NCBI GenBank assembly: GCA_026004875.1
Contig: BPJZ01000013.1
Location: forward strand, 32,681 to 96,680
DNA from: Candidatus Poribacteria bacterium
GTDB lineage: Bacteria; Poribacteria; WGA-4E; GCA-2687025
Length of the DNA stretch: 64,000 nt
Direction: 5' to 3'
The first letter of the stretch is position 1, and each line of letters starts with the position of its first letter. Below are positions 4,513 to 35,138 of this stretch, one piece after another. A program made the position numbers and the translations under genes. The notes under the pieces are model-generated. The model was given only the letters and a program-made list of their open reading frames with translations. It searched no databases and had not been told where the DNA came from.

Positions 4513-5802
4513 TCAAAAGTCCAACGTGACTCCACCCGTCCACCAGTCGGTCTCGAGATCGCCGTAGTAGGCGACGCCCGCCTTCAGGAAGGCCAGCGCC
4601 ACTTCCAGTCCGAAGGTGGGATAACCGTGGTTGTTCCCTGCACGGACAGCCAGCCGGAGGGGACTGCGGGGCAACAACACCGCCTCGATCCCCAGGTGTA
4701 GGTAGTCGGTAAAGGAGTTGTTTCGGAACTCCTCAAGGTGATTGTCTCCAGCCGGGCTGCTGAGCGCGGCGGCCACCTGCAGGTCGAGCAGGTCGTTTTC
4801 GCGGTTCAGCGCGCGTAGCGGGCGAGCAGCAAGGCCCACCGTCAGCGTCCGCGGAAAGCGTCCCTCCCCGACGTTGGAGACCAAGCTGCGAACCACTAGC
4901 GCCGAGCGGAGATAGTCGGTATGCTCTGCCTGCAGCCCCAAGTCCACGCCAAAGCCCCGCGTCGTCTCCGTGTTTTCGTCCACGAGATCCAGCACGTCCT
5001 GAAAGGAGGAGACCTCCTGATCGGCGCCAAAGCGCAGGTGTTCCTCTTGGAACCGCTCCGGATGGAGCGCTTCGGCGATCTCAAACTGATCGTTCCGGTA
5101 CTTCCGGTTGACCCATCGCCAGCCCAAACCGGCCCGGACGGTCCGCACGAAGGGCAGCTCCACGTGGCGCTTGGCCGCTACGGCTGCCTGGATGGTGGCC
5201 ACCTCTAAGGCTCCGCTCCATTGGACGCGGTCGTCCAGAGTGTCCAGCACAACCGAACGCCAAGGAAGCCCCGCCCGGCGGAACCGAAACCAGCTGAACG
5301 CTCGGTTGGTGACGTTCACACCGGCTGTGATCGGCGTCTGAGCCACTTCAAACAAGGGCGCCCCCAAGCTCAAGACGACAAAGTCCGACTGGAGAGCGAG
5401 ATCCCTTCGCCGGAGCCGCGCGATCCGATCCACCAGTCGTTGCGCCGCTGGGTGGTCCACCACCTGGTCTTCAGGGAGTCCGGAGAGTTCGTCCAGGTCG
5501 CTGAGCAGGTCGGGCAGCTCGGCGGTCTCATCTACTAGGTCCTTGGAGACTCGAGCCTGAATCGGCGTGAGCCGGAGCGTGAACCGCTCTAAGTGGCTCA
5601 GGCCGGCGGGATTGTAGTTAAAGCTGTCCAGGTCGTCGGCGAGCGCCTCGTAGGCGTTTCCCAGGGCCATCGGGCGCAACCCTCGATGGGGCAGGAGCGG
5701 AAGGATCTCTTCAGCGGCAGCGGTCGTCACCAGGAGCCCACAAAGGCCGAGCACCCATCCCCAGCCGATCCATTGTCCGACGCGTTGCAAAGTCCGGTAC
5801 AT
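4513..5802 (-). CDS. Outer-membrane beta-barrel protein (PorV/UPF0164-like)
   Basis: 429 residues with an N-terminal signal peptide (hydrophobic stretch ending near TTAAAE). Just after it comes RPMALGNAYEALADD and NYNPAGLSHL, the conserved opening of PorV/PorQ/UPF0164-type barrels (R.mALGnAy.A.addl.a..yNPAGL). The rest alternates amphipathic strands and ends in an aromatic strand, GVTLDF, typical of Bam-assembled proteins. It starts 15 bases after the stop of the lipoprotein gene, so the two probably form one transcript. This supports a diderm cell. The cargo or partner is unknown. In Bacteroidota relatives of this fold assist type IX secretion, but no T9SS core gene is visible here. Confidence 0.72.
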   Translation of the reverse strand: MYRTLQRVGQWIGWGWVLGLCGLLVTTAAAEEILPLLPHRGLRPMALGNAYEALADDLDSFNYNPAGLSHLERFTLRLTPIQARVSKDLVDETAELPDLLSDLDELSGLPEDQVVDHPAAQRLVDRIARLRRRDLALQSDFVVLSLGAPLFEVAQTPITAGVNVTNRAFSWFRFRRAGLPWRSVVLDTLDDRVQWSGALEVATIQAAVAAKRHVELPFVRTVRAGLGWRWVNRKYRNDQFEIAEALHPERFQEEHLRFGADQEVSSFQDVLDLVDENTETTRGFGVDLGLQAEHTDYLRSALVVRSLVSNVGEGRFPRTLTVGLAARPLRALNRENDLLDLQVAAALSSPAGDNHLEEFRNNSFTDYLHLGIEAVLLPRSPLRLAVRAGNNHGYPTFGLEVALAFLKAGVAYYGDLETDWWTGGVTLDF

Positions 5803-5817: not shown

Positions 5818-6756
5818 CTACTGTTCCTGAAGGATCCGCTCAACGAGGTCCGCCGGCAGCGTCTCGATGACGAATCCCCACGACTCCAGCTGACGGATCA
5901 GCTCCTCGATCAGCTCCCGATCCACGGAGTCGCGGAGCTCATCAATGGCCGCTTTGAGATCGGGGGCGACTTCGCCCAACCGCTCCGCCGCCTCGTTCAG
6001 GTGGAACAGGGCGCTACGCTGGTAGAGGGCCTCGTCTAGTTGGGGGAGCACCTCTTCCGCCCGCACGGTGCCGCCGGTCAGCAGACGAATCGCGTTAACC
6101 ATCGCTTGCCGCTGCTGATCGTTGAAGAGCGCCAACACTTCCCGGGGCCGGAGCCCCTCGACGTTCTGTTTGAACACGAAGTCGTAAACGTTCGCGCTGT
6201 CGGCCTCCGGCGAGTAGCGAATCTCGTACAGCTCCCCGCCGGCTTCAGCCAGGATGCCGACCGCGTTCAGGGTGTAAAGGTAGGAAAGGTAGAAGTGAAT
6301 CATCGCCTCGTCGGTCCTGGACAGGCCGAGCTCTTCAGCAAACTCCTCGATCAACTCCTGTCCGTCTTCCTGAAAGAGCGGGGCCTCCAGCGTGTCGATG
6401 AAGAGCGGCTCCTCCAAGGTGTACAGCTCGATCGGGTCCAAGGAGGTCCCCGTCGCTTCGAAGACTTCGTAGAAGGAGTCGATCGCCGTCTGCAGCTCCT
6501 GCTGAACCCGAGGGGAGGTCAACGCCTCTGGCGCGGGGAGCTCCTCCTTGAGGCTCCTGAGCGAGCCGATCTTGTCCAGGTCGAGCTGAACGTCGGCCCG
6601 TTCCATGGCCGTCTCCGCCGTGAGGAGCGCTTGACTGGCCTGCTGGAGGGAGGCGGGGATCTCTTCCTCCTCCTCGGCGCTGGGCCGTTCGGCGCAGCCG
6701 AACAGGGAGCTCAGCAGAAGCAGCGTCCCGGAGAGAAAAATCAGAGGGCGTTTCAT
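5818..6756 (-). CDS. Putative helical lipoprotein, function unknown
   Basis: The N-terminus is a signal peptide with lipobox LFGC, followed by an acidic linker (AEEEEEIPA), so the mature protein is probably lipid-anchored. The remaining 290 residues are predicted mostly helical and acidic, with no motif I recognise. ATG 6756 follows ACAGGAG. The gene lies directly upstream of the outer-membrane barrel gene with a 15-base gap, which suggests that the two act together at the outer membrane. A TPR-like periplasmic scaffold is possible but I cannot show repeats. Confidence 0.7.
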   Translation of the reverse strand: MKRPLIFLSGTLLLLSSLFGCAERPSAEEEEEIPASLQQASQALLTAETAMERADVQLDLDKIGSLRSLKEELPAPEALTSPRVQQELQTAIDSFYEVFEATGTSLDPIELYTLEEPLFIDTLEAPLFQEDGQELIEEFAEELGLSRTDEAMIHFYLSYLYTLNAVGILAEAGGELYEIRYSPEADSANVYDFVFKQNVEGLRPREVLALFNDQQRQAMVNAIRLLTGGTVRAEEVLPQLDEALYQRSALFHLNEAAERLGEVAPDLKAAIDELRDSVDRELIEELIRQLESWGFVIETLPADLVERILQEQ

Positions 6757-6864
6757 CAGAAACTCCTGTTAAATTGAGGCCGCGCAAACCCGTTGTACTT
6801 CCAAGAGGAGTATTGCGCATCCACCCACTGAGAACGCAAGCTGTCCCCCAGGGTTCAACGAGCG

Positions 6865-7962
6865 TTAGCGGAGGTAGCGGGCCGGATCAACGGCTCGGTC
6901 GTTGATCCGGATCTCAAAGTGGAGGTGGGGACCGGTGGAGTAGCCGGTCGAGCCGGTGTAGCCGAGGGTCGCCCCTTGTCGTACCCGTTGGCCGCGACGG
7001 ACAACGATCCGCTGAAGATGGGCGTAACGAGTCGTGACGCCTCCCCCGTGGTCGATGACGACCAGATTTCCGTATCCGCCCAGTCGGCCGGCGTAGATCA
7101 CGCGGCCGGAGCGAGCCGCGACGACCCGCGCCCCGGCGCCGGAGGCAAAGTCTATTCCCTGGTGCATCGTCCGCCGACCGCTGATCGGATGGGTGCGCAT
7201 CCCAAACGGCGAGGAGACGCGTCCAGAGACGGGCCGGATAAACCGCTCCGGCTGAGCGCTAGAGCCTGGCAGCACGCGCGGAATCTGGGCGTTGGGAAGA
7301 AACAGCTCCTGTCCGACCCAGATGCGGTTGGGGTTCTCGATCCCGTTTGTCTCCTGAATCGTCTTGATCGGGACCCGGTATCGAAGGGCGATGTCTTCCA
7401 AGGTGTCGTGCCGCTGGACGACGTAGAGCACCCCCTTCCGGTCAGGAATGCGGAGCGTGGCTCCAGGCGTTAGGCGACGGGGGTCGCGGATGCCGTTCAC
7501 GGTCAACAGGGTGTACCAGTCTAGGCCGAACTGACGAGCGATTGCGTCCAGCGTGTCCCCACGCTTGACCGTGTAGTTGGTGTAGCGCACCCGGACCCGG
7601 GAAGGGACGGGTTGGGGGCTCTGCCCCTCCTCCGGTTCCAGCGCCGGGACGGGGTCATCTGCCCCCTCAGCGGGCGGGGCGATCTCCTCTTCAGGGCGGC
7701 CGTCCAGGTCCGGCGGAAGGTCGATGAAGTCGTCAATGGAGTACCCTTCTGGACCGCCCAGGGGAAGGGTCGCGTCGGCAAAGCTCCGCGCGCTCCCCGA
7801 GGGCGCTCGAAGCGCCGCAAACAGAAAGAGCGATCCGAGCACCCCTGCGACAAAAAGAAGTGGCATCCAGTGGGAGCGGGTCCGAGGCTGCAAACACCTT
7901 GAGGGCCGGGAGCCCTCGACCAGGCGATCCCACTTGGAGTAAGAAGGCCGATTTTTTCGCAC
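6865..7962 (-). CDS. LysM-LysM-M23 cell-wall peptidase (membrane-anchored)
   Basis: After a cytoplasmic N-terminus of about 30 residues comes one membrane segment (MPLLFVAGVLGSLFLF) and a proline/acid-rich linker. Two LysM modules follow (YTVKRGDTLDAIARQFGL and YVVQRHDTLEDIALRYRV), which bind peptidoglycan. The C-terminal M23 domain has HQGIDFASG, a YAHLQ strand and HLHFEIR, containing the zinc-binding and catalytic histidines, so it should be an active endopeptidase. GTG 7962 is chosen because AAAGG lies about eight bases upstream. Likely role: septal or side-wall peptidoglycan remodelling, like NlpD/EnvC-type or MepM-type proteins. It lies upstream of the lipoprotein and barrel genes on the same strand. 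Confidence 0.88.
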   Translation of the reverse strand: MRKNRPSYSKWDRLVEGSRPSRCLQPRTRSHWMPLLFVAGVLGSLFLFAALRAPSGSARSFADATLPLGGPEGYSIDDFIDLPPDLDGRPEEEIAPPAEGADDPVPALEPEEGQSPQPVPSRVRVRYTNYTVKRGDTLDAIARQFGLDWYTLLTVNGIRDPRRLTPGATLRIPDRKGVLYVVQRHDTLEDIALRYRVPIKTIQETNGIENPNRIWVGQELFLPNAQIPRVLPGSSAQPERFIRPVSGRVSSPFGMRTHPISGRRTMHQGIDFASGAGARVVAARSGRVIYAGRLGGYGNLVVIDHGGGVTTRYAHLQRIVVRRGQRVRQGATLGYTGSTGYSTGPHLHFEIRINDRAVDPARYLR

Positions 7963-8004
7963 CAGCGTGCCTTTCTGGGCCTGGAGTCCAGCTCGCTTGA
8001 AAGG

Positions 8005-8865
8005 TTACGCGCTGGAGGACTTCTCCGTTTCGGTGGGGTCTGGCCCAAGGTTCCAGCCCCCGTCGAGGACCTCGATTCGGCCCGTCTTGTAGTGGGCGCG
8101 GGGATGGCTGAGCACCAGCGCTTCAAAGACCACCGCGTCCACATGCGCGAACTTAGTGACCGGTAGTTGCCCGGCGCGAAGCTGCTCCTCTTTGCGTCCG
8201 ATGGTGGCCAGACCCATGCCGGCGTAGACGACTCCAACGGCGATGACGTTCACGTTGATGTCGTCCCGCCGGAGCCGACGGGCCAGCTCCTGGAGCCCCT
8301 GTTCCAGCTTTCGCTTGGAGGCGGCGTAGTAGCGCAGATATTCGGAGGGGTACTCTTTCCATTCGGTGACGTAGGAAGAAATGCCTAGGATCGCCCCACG
8401 GGTGGGCCAGAGCGGGGAGAAGGACTCATTTCGGCGGAGAAGCGTAGCTGCTTCTTCTGAGAAGGCCAGTGGCGCATCGGCGTTGATCCGTTCCTGCTCG
8501 GCGATTCGCTCGGGGGTGAGGTCGGTCCTGTAACAGACACCAGCGTTGTTGATCAGCACGTCCAGCCGTCCGAAGGCCTCCTCGGTCCGCTCCAGAACTC
8601 GCCTTCGATCTCCTGGATCGGTGAGGTCGGCTCGGAGGAGCAGCAGCCGTTTCTCCTCCATTGCTTGGGCGTGATCCCGTCGGAGGAGCGCCTCAGCCTG
8701 TTGCGACTCCTCCGAGACTCCCCGGTGGAACACCACGACACGCGCTCCGGCGCCCAGAAAGCCGTCGGTCAGCGCTCGGCCGATCCCTCGGACGCCGCCA
8801 GAGATCAACACGACGCGTCCCGAATGCCGGATCTCCGGCTCTGGAGGAAGCCAAACTCCCTGCAC
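8005..8865 (-). CDS. SDR-family NAD(P)-dependent oxidoreductase
   Basis: A classical short-chain dehydrogenase. The Rossmann motif GGVRGIGRAL binds the cofactor, NNAGV follows, and the active site has a serine in ISSYVTEW and YYAASKRKLE (YxxxK). Length of 286 residues is normal. The ORF track starts 22 codons earlier. I choose GTG 8865 because AAGGAG lies ten bases before it and the extra N-terminus looks unstructured. It is divergent from a zinc alcohol dehydrogenase, and the two may oxidise the same sugar, polyol or alcohol. The substrate cannot be inferred. Confidence 0.85.
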   Translation of the reverse strand: MQGVWLPPEPEIRHSGRVVLISGGVRGIGRALTDGFLGAGARVVVFHRGVSEESQQAEALLRRDHAQAMEEKRLLLLRADLTDPGDRRRVLERTEEAFGRLDVLINNAGVCYRTDLTPERIAEQERINADAPLAFSEEAATLLRRNESFSPLWPTRGAILGISSYVTEWKEYPSEYLRYYAASKRKLEQGLQELARRLRRDDINVNVIAVGVVYAGMGLATIGRKEEQLRAGQLPVTKFAHVDAVVFEALVLSHPRAHYKTGRIEVLDGGWNLGPDPTETEKSSSA

Positions 8866-28688: not shown

Positions 28689-28717
28689 CTTGGAACGGGA
28701 CGCCGATTTTCTCATAA
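28689..28717 (+). promoter_or_regulatory. Sigma-70-type promoter of the sugar ABC operon
   Basis: TTGGAA, a 17-base spacer and CATAAT (5 of 6 in the -10) lie about 240 bases before the binding-protein gene. The predicted transcript start is near 28724. Confidence 0.5.
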
Positions 28718-28719
28718 TA

Positions 28720-28914
28720 ATGGCGATCGATGGGGGACGAAGTGGGAGAGTGGAACTGGTCGTTTCGCCGGATACGGAGCTTTATCTTATTACGTTGGGA
28801 ATCTCTGCGCTCCTGGCCTGTGTTGCCTTTCGGCGCGCTCGGCAGGGGGACGAAGCGAGCGCCTCGTTGCTCGCGTTGCTGGTGACTCTGCTGCTGGGGT
28901 TTGCGCGGTGTTAG
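28720..28914 (+). CDS. Possible small membrane protein at the head of the ABC operon
   Basis: An open frame of up to 64 codons with two hydrophobic stretches (LYLITLGISALLACVAF and ASLLALLVTLLLGF) separated by a charged loop. It ends shortly before the binding-protein gene. No good ribosome binding site fits the ATG, and the promoter at 28689 would leave it almost leaderless, so a downstream GTG at 28750 is the alternative. The alternating charge and hydrophobicity look protein-like, but it may be noncoding. Confidence 0.3.
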   Translation: MAIDGGRSGRVELVVSPDTELYLITLGISALLACVAFRRARQGDEASASLLALLVTLLLGFARC

Positions 28915-28956: not shown

Positions 28957-30294
28957 ATGGACGAACGGTTTCCGCTGGGCCGTGGCCCGTTGGTGATGCT
29001 GATTCTGTTTTTGATCTCGTCGTTTTTTGTCGTCCGTTCGACGGTAGAGGGGGAGAAGGAAGTCCTCGAGTTTTGGGTCTTTGCGAACACGCACTACGAC
29101 GAGTACAAGGCCCGCGAGGCGGCCTTTGAAGCGGCCCACCCCAACGTGGACGTGCGGATCACCAACTTCGGCGGGGCGATGCACGATAAGTTGTTGGCGG
29201 CGTTGCTGTCGGGGTTTGGGGGGCCGGACCTGGCCGAGGTGGAGATCACCTCAATCGGCCGATTCCTCAAAGGGCCGATTGATCAGGTGGGGTTTGTGGA
29301 CCTCAAGCCGCGGCTGCTGCAGGAGGGCTGGTGGGATCGGCATGTCACCGCTCGCTTTGCGCCGTGGTCCTACCGGGGGCGCACCTTTGGTCTCCCTCAC
29401 GATCTGCATCCGGTGGTCTTGCTCTACCGGCACGATCTATTTCAGGAGGCCGGGATTCACATGGAGGCGATCGAGACTTGGGATCAGTTTGTCCAGCAGA
29501 CGCGTCCCCTGGCCGCCGATCTGGACGGCGACGGGCTTCAGGATCGGTATCCGATCGTTCTCGGCCGCCGGAGCCACAGCGATTTTTTCACACTTCTCCT
29601 GCAACGGGGCGGTGGGATGTTCGACGAGCAAGGGGAGATCATCATTGACCGTCCGCTGGCCGTCCAAACGTTGGAATGGTACGCCCGGCTATTCCGGGAG
29701 GGGGTGGCGCGGGACTACGCAGGGGTTGGGGGTTATCTGGACCCGGCCACCTTTGCGCTCCTCCGCGACGGGCTGGCCTGCTCGGTCCTCGCCCCGGACT
29801 GGTACATTGGGATCATGAAAAAGTACTTCCCGGAGATGGCCGGAGCCTGGCGGGCGCGTGGCCTCCCTCGCTGGGAGCCGGGGGGCCGACGGACCAGCAC
29901 CTTTGGCGGAACGATGATCGGCATGACCGTCCAGTGTAAGAATCCGGACCTGGCGTGGGAGTACATGAAGTTCTCCTATTTCGACCGGCAAGCGCTGGTC
30001 AACCGGTATGAGAAGACCGGCATCCTTCCCCCTCTCAAGGAGGCTTGGGACGATCCGGTGTTCCATCGTTCGGATCCGTTCTTTGGTGGTCAGCAGCTGG
30101 GGACGCTGTTGATCGAGTTAGCCGAGGAGATCCCTCCTCGTTACCAGAATCCTTACTGGTCGGAGGCCGCCGACCTGTTCGACGAGGCGGTTTTGAACGT
30201 CATCGACGGGAAGATCGCGCCGGCGGACTCGCTCCGGCGACTGGCTGAACAGGTGCGCCGATTGATGGAGGAAGATCGCCTTTCCGGCTCTTGA
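28957..30294 (+). CDS. ABC-type sugar-binding protein (family 1 extracellular solute-binding)
   Basis: About 445 residues. A hydrophobic N-terminal segment (VMLILFLISSFFVV) is a signal or anchor with no lipobox cysteine. The mature protein follows the family-1 pattern: VLEFWVFANTHYDEYKA, then GFGGPDLAEVEITSIGRF, LPHDLHPVVLLYRHDLF, ETWDQFVQQTRPL and FGGTMIGMTVQCKNPDLAWEYMKF. DLDGDGLQDRYP could bind calcium. ATG 28957 is preferred over 28921 on ribosome-site spacing. Substrate class is probably an oligosaccharide or glycerol-phosphate-like compound. It is the first solid gene of an operon whose permeases come only after two unrelated genes. Confidence 0.88.
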   Translation: MDERFPLGRGPLVMLILFLISSFFVVRSTVEGEKEVLEFWVFANTHYDEYKAREAAFEAAHPNVDVRITNFGGAMHDKLLAALLSGFGGPDLAEVEITSIGRFLKGPIDQVGFVDLKPRLLQEGWWDRHVTARFAPWSYRGRTFGLPHDLHPVVLLYRHDLFQEAGIHMEAIETWDQFVQQTRPLAADLDGDGLQDRYPIVLGRRSHSDFFTLLLQRGGGMFDEQGEIIIDRPLAVQTLEWYARLFREGVARDYAGVGGYLDPATFALLRDGLACSVLAPDWYIGIMKKYFPEMAGAWRARGLPRWEPGGRRTSTFGGTMIGMTVQCKNPDLAWEYMKFSYFDRQALVNRYEKTGILPPLKEAWDDPVFHRSDPFFGGQQLGTLLIELAEEIPPRYQNPYWSEAADLFDEAVLNVIDGKIAPADSLRRLAEQVRRLMEEDRLSGS

Positions 30295-30389: not shown

Positions 30390-31562
30390 ATGGGGGAGGC
30401 GCTTTATCCGCCGCTCCTTCGGGCGGCGGTGCGCTATTTTGCACTCCGCGATGCCGCGGAACTAGTCTCACTGGCGGGTTCTATTGTGGCGACCCCCACG
30501 GACGTGCTCTGGGAGGCGCTTTGGTGGCGGCATCGCTCTCCTGCCTTGACAGCGGGGGCCCTGGTAAAGGCTCATCAAGAGCAACTGATATCGCTTCCCT
30601 CGGCCCTTTTGGAGCGCTGTGATGCGCTGCTGGATGCCGCCCAGCGGCGCTATATGGCCCTGCGCGCCGTCGCAACCAACATTGCCCAGGCGTTCGCCAA
30701 CTCCGGGATCGCTTACTGCTTCTTGAAAGGCATGGCTCTAACGGAGCAGGTTTACCCCCAAATTGGGGGACGGGTTACCCGGCTATTCGGCGACTTAGAC
30801 GTTGCCATCTCTTCCAAGAGCGCGGGGCGAGCGAGTGAACTCCTGATCTCCCTTGGTTTTTTGCACCACGGCGGGGGGGAGGATCACCGCGTCTTTGTGC
30901 TGCCGGTAGACCGCCCCTTATGGGAGGGGCTGCCGCTCTTTGAGCGTCCGGTTCGGCTCACTTCTGAACTGGAAGAGGCGATCCGGTTTGGCAGTCGTCA
31001 TGTGTTCTTGGAGTTGCACGTTGGGCCGGTCTTGGGGAGAGGGCTCCTGTGGCAGCGTCGGGAGTTACCCGTTGACTCGCTGGAGGGACATCTTCTTCAT
31101 GCCTGTCTGCACTACGCGAAGCATCTGATGGCCCACAGCACCCACCCGACGAGCCTGGTTGATGCCGCTTTGATCCTCAACCGTTCTGACTTTGAGGGGG
31201 CTGTATTTTTGGACTTGATCGGAGAGGATCGGGAGCTTCAACGGTGGGTTGCTGTTTCACTGGGCGGGTGTGTCGCGGCTTTCGGCGAGGAGATACTTCC
31301 TGGGTCGGTTCGGGCCGTCCGCTTCTGGCAGGGGTTTCGAGCCGGTTGTCGGTTGGGTCAGGGGGTAGCCTCGGACCATCCTTCGCTGTTTCAGAAGGCG
31401 CGTTCCTTTCTCGCTCCGGACCTTTTGTGGCTATGGGGGCCTTTTGTGCTGAACGGACTGAGAAGCCTTGGTCTTGCCTGGGCGCCGGCAGGGAGTCGTC
31501 GGCGAAGAGCGGCACGGTGGGTCTTCCGGCGGACGCTCAAGCCGCTTTTGTGGGAGGGATAG
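30390..31562 (+). CDS. Uncharacterised nucleotidyltransferase (NTP_transf_5 family)
   Basis: 390 residues, no signal peptide. The family signature is clear: AYCFLKGMALTEQVYP with Lys 113, then RVTRLFGDLDVAI with Asp 135 and Asp 137, matching K-G-x-A-L ... DxD of PF14907-type proteins. The C-terminal half is helical. Relatives are frequent in lasso-peptide and other RiPP clusters beside HPr-kinase-like proteins, yet their reaction is not settled. Here it is followed two bases later by just such a kinase-like gene. No PqqD-like protein, precursor or asparagine-synthetase-like gene is visible. It interrupts a sugar ABC operon. Confidence 0.75.
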   Translation: MGEALYPPLLRAAVRYFALRDAAELVSLAGSIVATPTDVLWEALWWRHRSPALTAGALVKAHQEQLISLPSALLERCDALLDAAQRRYMALRAVATNIAQAFANSGIAYCFLKGMALTEQVYPQIGGRVTRLFGDLDVAISSKSAGRASELLISLGFLHHGGGEDHRVFVLPVDRPLWEGLPLFERPVRLTSELEEAIRFGSRHVFLELHVGPVLGRGLLWQRRELPVDSLEGHLLHACLHYAKHLMAHSTHPTSLVDAALILNRSDFEGAVFLDLIGEDRELQRWVAVSLGGCVAAFGEEILPGSVRAVRFWQGFRAGCRLGQGVASDHPSLFQKARSFLAPDLLWLWGPFVLNGLRSLGLAWAPAGSRRRRAARWVFRRTLKPLLWEG

Positions 31563-31563
31563 A

Positions 31564-32574
31564 ATGAACCAACAACCTCCTTCCCTTCTTGCCGTTCGGA
31601 CGAGGCCACAGGAGCTCTCGCCGAGCACTGTTGAGGAGGTGGTCCTTCTTGGCACCACCTTGCGGTGGGGGGTGAACGTCTCTCAGCTGGAACCGCTGAT
31701 CCACAGCGCTTGCTCCCTCTGGCAGCGGGCTCAGGTTCCCCCGACCGGCAACGAAGGGGCGCTTTCCCTTTTTTGGTTTCCTCTGGGCGAATACGAGGCC
31801 ACCACCGGCTACCTCTTTCCTCACGCCCCGGCCCGAAGCGTGCTACACCATCCGGCGGAGGGAATGGCGCTGATTCAAGACCACGTGGCTACAGTGGTCC
31901 TAACCGCCTCGGAGGTGCCCCAGCGAAGCTTTCTCCTAGGCTTTGCGCTGGAGGCCGTTTTGAAGCGGCCGCCGTTCTATCAGATTCACGCTGCTGCTGT
32001 GGAAAAGGAGGGGAGGGCCGTCCTTCTCGCGGCGGAGAGCGGAAGGGGAAAAAGCGCGCTTTCGCTCTTCTTGACCCTCTGCTGTGGCTACCGGTACTTA
32101 GGCGACGATGCGATTCTGATCGACGGAAGAACGACGGTTCTGATAGGCGCGCCGGACCGCATTGAAATTTGGCCGGAGGTGGCGGAGCTCGTCTTAGCGT
32201 CTGGGATCTCCATTCCGGAGCGGGTGATCTCCTGGAAGGGCTCCCGTCGCGGCGGGGGACGGAAAATGGTTCTTCCTGCAGAGGCGCTCTTGGGGGATCG
32301 AACAGCGGTCATGGCTCCACTCGCCGCCGTCGTGTTCCTCGAAGAGGGGGAGGACTTTGCCGTCCGGCGGGTTGCCCCTTCGCGGGCCAGAGGTCTCTTG
32401 CGCCCCGTTCCGCTGTTTGGGCGACGAAGCTTGGTCTGGGGCTGGCGTCCAATTGCTGAACGCTTGGTCCGGTCGGTGCCCTTTCTCTCCCTTCGGATTG
32501 ACCATCCCTCCGATCCGCGCGAAAATGCCCGGCGGTTCGATGCGGTTCTCCAGGAGGTGTTGTTCTCAGCCTGA
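31564..32574 (+). CDS. HPr-kinase-like (HprK-related) P-loop kinase
   Basis: 336 residues from ATG 31564, which follows GGGAGGG and lies two bases after the previous stop. After a 135-residue N-terminal domain, IHAAAVEKEGRAVLLAAESGRGKSALSL holds the HPrK-type P-loop at residues 160-164, and YRYLGDDAILI (GDD near 180) matches the HPrK catalytic-metal motif. The family phosphorylates serine or small molecules. True HprK has an N-terminal regulatory domain of a different kind. No PTS gene is in sight. Pairing with the NTP_transf_5 gene is the known genomic habit of this family. Confidence 0.75.
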   Translation: MNQQPPSLLAVRTRPQELSPSTVEEVVLLGTTLRWGVNVSQLEPLIHSACSLWQRAQVPPTGNEGALSLFWFPLGEYEATTGYLFPHAPARSVLHHPAEGMALIQDHVATVVLTASEVPQRSFLLGFALEAVLKRPPFYQIHAAAVEKEGRAVLLAAESGRGKSALSLFLTLCCGYRYLGDDAILIDGRTTVLIGAPDRIEIWPEVAELVLASGISIPERVISWKGSRRGGGRKMVLPAEALLGDRTAVMAPLAAVVFLEEGEDFAVRRVAPSRARGLLRPVPLFGRRSLVWGWRPIAERLVRSVPFLSLRIDHPSDPRENARRFDAVLQEVLFSA

Positions 32575-32618: not shown

Positions 32619-33515
32619 GTGAACTTCTGGCGTCAACAGACCAAGTGGGCTCCCTATCTGTTCGTCTCGCCATTCTTCATCCTCTTTGCGATCTTCATGG
32701 TTTATCCGCTGCTCAGCTCCATTTGGCTCAGCTTCCATCAGAGTCGGGGGTTTCAGTATCAGGTCTTCGTGGGGTTGGAGAACTTCGCTCGACTCTTTCG
32801 AGATCCGCTCTTTTGGAAGTCGCTCCGGAACACGTTCTACTTTGCGGCGGGGACTTTTCTCATTCAGCTTCCGTTGGCACTGTTGCTGGCGCTGATCGTC
32901 AACTCCAGGCGAATCAAAGGCCGAAACTTCTTTCGGTTGGCCTTCTTTTCGCCGGTCCTGATCTCCGGGGTCTTTATTGCGATCATCTTCGCGCTGGCCT
33001 ACGACGCCCGTTCTGGGCTGGTCAACGATATGCTGAGCCGACTCTTGCCCAAGCGGGTGTTGATCCCCTGGCTTGAGAACGAACGGTGGGTGATGCCCGC
33101 CGTCATTCTGGCCGGCGTCTGGCGATGGACCGGCTTTAACATGATCTACTTTTTAGCCGGACTGCAGGGGATCCGTCAGGAGCTTTATGAAGCGGCGGCC
33201 GTGGATGGCGCCAACGCCTGGCAGGCCTTCCTTCATGTGACGCTTCCTTCTTTGCGGCCGGTGATCACCTTTGTGCTGGTCTTTTCGATGATTGGGAGCC
33301 TTCAGCTGTTCGACCTTCCCTACGTGCTAACCAACGGGGGCGGAGGCCCAAACGACGCTGCCACGACGATCGTCATGTACCTTTATCGACACGGGTTCCA
33401 GTTTGTGAACCTGGGGTATGCCGCGACGATCGGGTGGGTGCTGTTCGGCATTTTGGTGGTCGTCTCTTTGATTCAGCTTCGGGTGCTGCGCTTTGGCCGG
33501 GAGGAGGAAGCATGA
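32619..33515 (+). CDS. Sugar ABC transporter permease (MalF/UgpA type)
   Basis: 298 residues, six membrane helices, opening FVSPFFILFAIFMVYPLLSS, the normal start of this permease class. The cytoplasmic EAA loop that contacts the ATPase is YEAAAVDGANAWQAFLHVTLP. GTG 32619 is nine bases after AGGGGAGG. The next permease starts in an ATGA overlap, so both are made in equal amounts. With the binding protein upstream it should import an oligosaccharide or similar solute. No ATPase gene is present, so a shared MsmX-type ATPase encoded elsewhere is likely. Confidence 0.93.
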   Translation: MNFWRQQTKWAPYLFVSPFFILFAIFMVYPLLSSIWLSFHQSRGFQYQVFVGLENFARLFRDPLFWKSLRNTFYFAAGTFLIQLPLALLLALIVNSRRIKGRNFFRLAFFSPVLISGVFIAIIFALAYDARSGLVNDMLSRLLPKRVLIPWLENERWVMPAVILAGVWRWTGFNMIYFLAGLQGIRQELYEAAAVDGANAWQAFLHVTLPSLRPVITFVLVFSMIGSLQLFDLPYVLTNGGGGPNDAATTIVMYLYRHGFQFVNLGYAATIGWVLFGILVVVSLIQLRVLRFGREEEA

Positions 33516-34348
33516 GCCGAAGGCGCCTTTGGAATCGTCTTCTGCTGGTCCTGGCCCATCTGGTGCTGATCGCCGTTGCGGTCGCCGTTCTGTTGCCGAT
33601 GATCTGGCTGGTGGCCTCGTCGTTTAAGACCTCCGGGGAGCTTTTTCAATCGCCGCCGACCTTCTGGCCCAAGGAGCCGACGCTGGAGAACTTCCGACGT
33701 CTTTTTGTCGAGGTTCCCTTCTGGCGCTACTTTGTCAACTCGGTCTTCCTTTCGACAGCGGCGACGCTCGCCTCGCTGTTCTTTTCGACGCTGGGGGGGT
33801 TCGGTTTCGCCAAGTACCGCTTTCGGGGGCAGGGCGTTCTTTTTGGAATTCTCCTGGCCTCGATGATGATCCCGTTTGAGGTATTGTTGGTGCCGCTGTT
33901 TAAGCTGCTCCGAGATATCGGGTGGCTGGACACTTACTGGGGGGTGGTCGTCCCCTTCATGGCGGGGGGATTTGGAATCTTTCTGATGCGGCAGTTTATT
34001 GTTTCCGTCCCCGACGATCTGATTGACGCGGCGCGGATTGACGGTTGTAGCGAGTTTGGCATCTACTGGCGGGTGGTGCTGCCGGTGATTAAGCCGGCGG
34101 TCGGAGCGTTGACGATCTTTATCTTTTTGGGGCAGTGGAACAGCTACCTTTGGCCGCTGATCGTCCTTCGGGACGATGCCAAGTACACCCTTCCGATCGG
34201 CCTGGCCAATCTGATCGGCGTTTATCAGCAGGAGTACGGCATGTTGATGGCCGGAACGCTGATTGCGCTGATTCCGATCATCACGCTGTTTTTAGCGATG
34301 CAGCGGGAGTTTGTTTCGGGAATTACCTTGGGCGCAGTCAAGGAGTGA
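33512..34348 (+). CDS. Sugar ABC transporter permease (MalG/UgpE type)
   Basis: 278 residues, six helices. It opens with LLPMIWLVASSFKTSGELF, the typical second-permease pattern, and its EAA loop reads IDAARIDGCSEFGIYWRVVLP. ATG 33512 overlaps the stop of the first permease (ATGA). The track ORF starting at 33434 is a false extension. It forms the heterodimeric channel with the preceding gene. A YwiC-like gene begins four bases after its stop. Confidence 0.93.
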   Translation: MSRRRLWNRLLLVLAHLVLIAVAVAVLLPMIWLVASSFKTSGELFQSPPTFWPKEPTLENFRRLFVEVPFWRYFVNSVFLSTAATLASLFFSTLGGFGFAKYRFRGQGVLFGILLASMMIPFEVLLVPLFKLLRDIGWLDTYWGVVVPFMAGGFGIFLMRQFIVSVPDDLIDAARIDGCSEFGIYWRVVLPVIKPAVGALTIFIFLGQWNSYLWPLIVLRDDAKYTLPIGLANLIGVYQQEYGMLMAGTLIALIPIITLFLAMQREFVSGITLGAVKE

Positions 34349-34352
34349 TCGG

Positions 34353-35138
34353 ATGGCGCAACGTCCCGTTCCTCGAGAGCACGGCGCGTGGATGATGCTC
34401 CTGGTGCCCTACGCGCTTGGATTGGTCGAGGGACCAGAGCACCGATTGCGGCTGGGCTTGGACTGGCTGGGTGGGCTACTCTTTTTTCTCGGAGGGTTCC
34501 TCACGCGGGCGCCGTTGGTCGCTCTGCTCACCGAGCGGCCGGAGCGTCGCGTTGGCGTGGGGCGCTGGCTTTATCGGACCGGGACTATTACGATCGCCGG
34601 TGCTGTGTTGGCGGCGCACAGTCCCAACCGGGCTTTTTTGGCCCTCTGGGGTGGAGTCGCGCTTCTCCTCTTTCTGCTCTATCTGGGGTTTTGCCTGGCG
34701 CGGGCGCAACGCAGCCTACTGGGGGAGCTGATCGGCATCCTCGGACTGACAACGGCCGGCCCAATCGGCTATGCCCTGGCCCTGGGAACCGATGAGACCC
34801 GCGCGTTGGTCCTGTGGGTGGTGCCCACGCTCTACTTTGCCTCGAGCATCGGGTACGTGCGCTGGCGGGTCGACCGCTGGAAGGCTCAGCGGCGCGGTGA
34901 GCCTCCAAGGAGGGAACTTTTGGCCGCCGTGATTGGTGGCTATGTCGTCGCTGTCCTTGGAACAGCGGGGCTAGGAGTGATCGGCTGGCTTCCTCCGATA
35001 GCGGTCGTTGCTCTGATGCCGATCCTGGGGCGGCATCTCTGGGACCTGTTCGGGCGTACCCCTTCAGTCGTTCAGGTGGGAGTGAGTGAGATTCTGCTGT
35101 CACTCCTCTTTTTCTTCTTGGCCGCCCGATTCCTCTGA
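34353..35138 (+). CDS. YwiC-like membrane protein
   Basis: 261 residues with about nine hydrophobic helices. The N-terminal PREHGAWMMLLVP is the hallmark of the YwiC-like family (PF14256), whose function is unknown and which is found in many bacteria near nitrate or respiratory genes. ATG 34353 follows GGAGTGATCGG. It is only four bases after the second permease, so it is transcribed with the sugar importer, an unusual context. Its final 39 bases overlap the convergent 730-residue gene. Confidence 0.82.
   Translation: MAQRPVPREHGAWMMLLVPYALGLVEGPEHRLRLGLDWLGGLLFFLGGFLTRAPLVALLTERPERRVGVGRWLYRTGTITIAGAVLAAHSPNRAFLALWGGVALLLFLLYLGFCLARAQRSLLGELIGILGLTTAGPIGYALALGTDETRALVLWVVPTLYFASSIGYVRWRVDRWKAQRRGEPPRRELLAAVIGGYVVAVLGTAGLGVIGWLPPIAVVALMPILGRHLWDLFGRTPSVVQVGVSEILLSLLFFFLAARFL

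Follow-up and report, generated by a model that had tools for sequence, protein, structure and literature searches.

The window that we analyzed, a stretch of 64,000 nucleotides from a 2.84-Mb, 64% complete MAG of Candidatus Poribacteria, carries a carbohydrate ABC importer operon in which two genes encoding predicted enzymes lie between the gene for the extracellular solute-binding protein (SBP) and the genes for the two permeases. The SBP gene (28957–30294, + strand; SBP_bac_1, PF01547, 90 bits) is followed on the same strand by a gene for an NTP_transf_5 nucleotidyltransferase-fold protein of 390 aa (30390–31562), a gene for an HPrK-like P-loop kinase-fold protein of 336 aa (31564–32574), the genes for permease 1 (32619–33515, with a GTG start) and permease 2 (33512–34348), and a gene for a YwiC-like membrane protein (34353–35138; PF14256, 63 bits), which is the last gene of the putative operon. 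Both permeases match PF00528, and their best NCBIfam matches, UgpA for permease 1 and UgpE for permease 2, are below cut-off. The gaps between the SBP, nucleotidyltransferase, kinase and permease 1 genes are 96, 1 and 44 nt, with the kinase gene most likely starting at the ATG at 31564, one base after the stop codon of the nucleotidyltransferase gene. Since the gaps from the SBP gene to the permease genes (32619–34348) are short, and since the operon contains no convincing internal promoter or terminator, a single transcript is likely. The unusual arrangement described in the original prediction, an importer split by two back-to-back genes, is real. There is no ATPase gene in the importer operon, and no RNA families were found between 26 and 36 kb of the window. 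Just 5′ of the SBP gene, a short open frame (28690–28914, +) possibly encodes a small protein with two hydrophobic stretches, with an ATG possible at 28720; this frame lacks a clear ribosome-binding site, and we saw nothing corresponding to it in G005, a genome of the same family.

The first of the two proteins belongs to the NTP_transf_5 family, scoring 82 bits against PF14907 (Pfam cut-off 31.2), a family with matches in 111 of the 387 genomes that we sampled. It contains the motifs LKG, RLFGDLD and ELH, with the GDxD-type nucleotidyltransferase motif RLFGDLD located at residues 131–137; five family members all keep its D135 and D137 unchanged. An AlphaFold2 model built from an alignment of only four sequences (mean pLDDT 73.8) gave Cid1, LnuA and ANT(2″)-Ia as its best structure matches, none at E < 0.001, so that the assignment of a nucleotidyltransferase fold comes mainly from the Pfam match.

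The second protein is below every curated cut-off: it scores 17.1 bits against PF07475 (Hpr_kinase_C; cut-off 33.3), 19.3 bits against TIGR00679 (hpr-ser; cut-off 240), and 41.8 bits (E 6.6e-11) against TIGR04352 (HprK-related kinase A; cut-off 200, reached by no match in the 387 genomes). Its motifs are intact, with a Walker A sequence, ESGRGKSA, starting at residue 158, HAAAV at 142 and GDDAI at 180. The AlphaFold2 model, also from only four sequences, has a mean pLDDT of 56.8 and is reliable in its C-terminal part only, and it matches structures of HPrK and PEPCK with E values from 7e-7 to about 1e-5. Judged by its P-loop, its conserved Asp pair and the HPrK/PEPCK fold of the model, the protein is a remote relative within the HPr kinase superfamily; it shares the fold, the Walker A motif and the Asp pair with HPr kinase/phosphorylase (HPrK/P), but differs from it in falling below the PF07475 and TIGR00679 cut-offs. 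The family assignments made originally hold for the nucleotidyltransferase-fold protein, and for the kinase-like protein only as a distant relationship. No solved relative of either protein was convincing by sequence.

The host operon, comprising the SBP and two permeases, is orthologous to other carbohydrate ABC importers with UgpA/UgpE-like permeases that are widespread in Poribacteria, and differs from them in that two genes are inserted between SBP and permease 1 in the window copy only. We searched 82 genomes with the SBP and permease 1, and identified 59 relatives where both matches are on one contig. In all 59 of these, the two matches are 49–530 nt apart (median 129), compared to 2327 in the window, confirming the expectation that the binding-protein and permease genes are normally adjacent. 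In G005, for example, the importer on contig C11 is uninterrupted, its genes for SBP and permease 1 being 33 nt apart, and its SBP (which also has orthologues in many other Poribacteria), permease 1 and permease 2 are 68%, 80% and 77.5% identical to those of the window. As all 59 orthologous importers are contiguous at this point, the pair of enzyme genes represents an insertion, observed in this genome alone, and the most economical reading is that it was inserted in the window's lineage into a pre-existing importer operon. The third-position GC content (GC3) of the pair is 0.67 and 0.69, compared to 0.72–0.79 for its neighbours, which lends slight support to a different history. The insertion is a single case from one incomplete MAG, and this raises the alternative that the arrangement is an assembly artefact; such an artefact would need two chimeric junctions, and both would have to leave the genes of one importer on the two sides in frame, in the same orientation and close together; moreover, the overall GC content is similar, so we regard this explanation as extremely improbable. 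Within the window we saw no convincing flanking repeats and no tRNA gene as marks of a mobile element, and we found no plasmid match for the kinase and no phage match for the nucleotidyltransferase-fold protein.

Several additional observations concern the importers of other Poribacteria. In G005, the importer (L159:3078-9424, −) is followed by genes encoding a short-chain dehydrogenase, a sulfatase and a Gfo/Idh oxidoreductase, which hints at a sulfated sugar as the substrate. In two Poribacteria of another family (L160:7072-10096 and L164:4657-8150), the gene that comes after those for SBP and permease 1 is HisA-like (a name given by eye from the sequence) instead of permease 2. In the window's own genome (G000), two long overlapping frames on contig C5 (L166:4556-7114 and 6361-8856, +) match the importer permease profile; they look far longer than a normal permease, and possibly represent fused SBP-permease proteins.

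The enzyme pair itself is conserved within the family. Five of the six family genomes (the window's genome, G001, G003, G004 and G005) contain the two genes adjacent to each other, with G002 being without the pair. In the four relatives, the genes are also back to back, and the start codon of the second overlaps the end of the first. Maximum-likelihood trees place the five family copies in one clade, with support of 100/98 for the HPrK-like protein and 100/99 for the nucleotidyltransferase-fold protein, and with deeper branching poorly resolved. The pairs of G004 and G005 are 73–74% identical, with a dN/dS of 0.22–0.23, and three other neighbouring genes are 84–94% identical; this indicates that the pair is under purifying selection and is fast-evolving. 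The surroundings differ from genome to genome: in G001 the neighbours are carB, a pRiA4b-like gene and EutN/CcmL-like genes, in G003 a peptidase M48 gene, and in G004 and G005 a sulfotransferase gene directly upstream (69% identical between the two, dN/dS 0.20) and a divergent DUF6785 gene. In G005, a tRNA-Leu (gag) gene (L031:11153-11237, +) is located directly downstream of the pair, a possible integration site that has no equivalent in the window, and ABC-2 exporter genes lie beyond it. Neither an importer nor a PqqD gene is present near the pair in any of these four relatives.

These comparisons bear directly on the proposed role of the pair in modifying the transporter or the compound that it imports. 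Under such a scheme, the kinase-like protein would phosphorylate and the nucleotidyltransferase would activate the imported sugar, or both would modify the transporter, and the position of the genes in the operon would reflect their function. The shared strand, the gaps of at most 96 nt and the probable shared transcript speak for this scheme. However, the 59 orthologous importers all do without the pair at this position, in four family relatives the pair occurs with no importer nearby, and G005 contains both, unlinked, with the pair on contig C25 and the importer on C11. In addition, an importer SBP or permease was found near none of the 37 other loci with an NTP_transf_5 and HPrK pair that we surveyed, with the same permease profile detecting permeases in 8 of 8 importer loci. 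A role of the pair in import is therefore very unlikely, and its association with sugar import is probably incidental.

The wider company of such pairs was surveyed using PF14907 and TIGR04352 matches from the 387 genomes, with 57 sequences, including the window, examined with purpose-built profiles made from few seeds. As loci were chosen partly for strong matches or adjacent pairs, and as several are short contigs, the proportions describe this sample only. PqqD is encoded nearby in 28 of 38 NTP_transf_5 and HPrK loci, the ten without it being the five family loci and five others; outside the window's clade the count is 28 of 33, in agreement with the company originally described for such pairs, which places them beside PqqD in RiPP clusters. 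Clusters of the TIGR04352 type, which contain PqqD, NTP_transf_5, and methyltransferase or radical SAM genes, also occur in Poribacteria of other families (G009 and G075). The pair in the window's clade belongs to the same two protein families, which are often neighbours in those clusters, but lacks an adjacent PqqD, methyltransferase, radical SAM or peptide gene, and its kinase-like protein is far below the TIGR04352 cut-off. Neither the window locus nor any of the four other family loci has PqqD beside the pair, and the operon was correctly described as having no visible PqqD or precursor partner, to which we add that no lasso gene is visible in the operon or was found linked to the pair. 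An all-against-all comparison found no short ORF common to the five family loci at E 0.01, a comparison that a wholly unfamiliar precursor would escape. The proposition that relatives of the pair always sit in RiPP clusters does not hold, because the four nearest relatives are also without PqqD.

A RiPP pathway with its precursor and leader-binding protein encoded elsewhere, in which the pair would be an ordinary tailoring pair among scattered genes, accords with the frequency of PqqD at the 33 other loci, with the documented tailoring of lasso peptides by such enzymes (PMC8498205; PMC9266682), and with the single PqqD gene on contig C11 of the window's genome, the missing 36% of which could hold a precursor. 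We examined this PqqD as a partner acting in trans, and rejected it. Five of the six family genomes contain a single PqqD copy in an unrelated conserved operon, and this operon is also kept in G002, which has no pair, making it unlikely that the PqqD is dedicated to the pair. Along with the absence of PqqD or a common short ORF at all five family loci, no lasso B2 protein (Transglut_core3) is over cut-off in the window's genome, where a single unlinked match reaches 23.3 of 26 bits. We therefore consider a scattered RiPP pathway possible, but unlikely.

A different acceptor is suggested by some of the neighbouring genes. Surface glycans (exopolysaccharide) could be what the pair acts on, for instance by providing them with phosphate-linked substituents in addition to sulfation, given that in G004 and G005 a sulfotransferase gene directly precedes the pair, and that ABC-2 exporter genes lie downstream in G005. 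G005 also contains a truncated second NTP-like frame, an N-terminal fragment cut by the contig end (L032:1-3797, −; contig C94), located downstream of, and on the same strand as, epimerase, glycosyltransferase and sugar transferase genes. However, the pair has no glycan genes next to it in the window, G001 or G003, and no sulfotransferase homologue was found in G000, G001 or G003, leaving this an unlikely explanation. Some lasso clusters of Firmicutes likewise include a sulfotransferase gene as an additional partner (PMC8498205), as do the loci of G004 and G005.

The only experimentally tested activities that we found for this combination of enzymes come from lasso peptides. In the biosynthesis of pseudomycoidin, the HPrK homologue PsmK phosphorylates the C-terminal Ser of the peptide, and PsmN is needed for the addition of one or two hexoses to that phosphate (PMC9266682; PMC8498205); alternatively, PsmN may be a nucleotidyltransferase followed in the pathway by a host enzyme, the choice between glycosyl- and nucleotidyltransferase being unsettled (PMC9266682). 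PsmK/PsmN and PadeK/ThcoK resemble the window pair, at family level, in combining an HPrK-type kinase with an annotated nucleotidyltransferase, but differ in that no precursor, B1, B2 or C gene is present at the window pair. By analogy with the PsmK/PsmN chemistry, we propose a two-step decoration of a hydroxyl group. The HPrK-like enzyme would phosphorylate a hydroxyl of the acceptor at the expense of a nucleotide triphosphate, and the nucleotidyltransferase-fold enzyme would then attach a sugar or nucleotide group to that phosphate. Probable acceptors are peptides, proteins or surface glycans that are encoded or produced elsewhere in the cell. As no acceptor, precursor or leader-binding domain was found, and as all tested enzymes are only remotely related to the window proteins, this proposed chemistry derives from the family relationship.

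The reading that we favour, although tentatively and at somewhat below even confidence, is that the pair may be a compact two-gene module of one Candidatus Poribacteria family, inserted here into an importer operon and carrying out the two-step decoration of an acceptor made elsewhere. Co-transcription with the importer would then reflect the module's landing site, and would not be evidence for the imported sugar as substrate, and with a genome that is 64% complete, missing partners of the pair may be encoded in the absent 36%. A PqqD-independent module that is no longer, or never was, of the RiPP type, sitting in unrelated operons across Poribacteria and carrying out phosphorylation and phosphate-linked sugar or nucleotide transfer to a non-RiPP acceptor (a protein or surface glycan), is conceivable, although we would not expect it. 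What we observe is more aptly seen as a variant of a known enzyme pair that is lineage-specific and PqqD-less, and that was inserted into the importer operon of one genome. NTP_transf_5 and HPrK-like proteins are widespread, with a function assigned in lasso peptides, and our literature search found no paper assigning them a function outside these; a stable version with two genes, and with neither PqqD nor a linked precursor, offers the simplest setting for studying how the two act jointly, and on which acceptor. The comparison of 59 operons, which shows the linkage to sugar import to be private to one genome, is also a warning against guessing function from operon membership.

A scan with the family alignment returned only three Poribacteria loci, owing to the use of a single pattern. 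Our survey also identified short ORFs with an RRD-LK...P-SI motif adjoining HPrK and methyltransferase genes (L034:10069-10359, −; L059:5249-5566 and 6980-7240, −), which are candidate precursor or substrate peptides of PqqD/HPrK-type clusters; a regular-expression search for this motif in the ORFs around the family pairs gave no match. In G009, one long frame (L035:3581-5218, −) matches both PqqD and radical SAM, and is adjoined by a short ORF with GLQG repeats (5245-5463, +).
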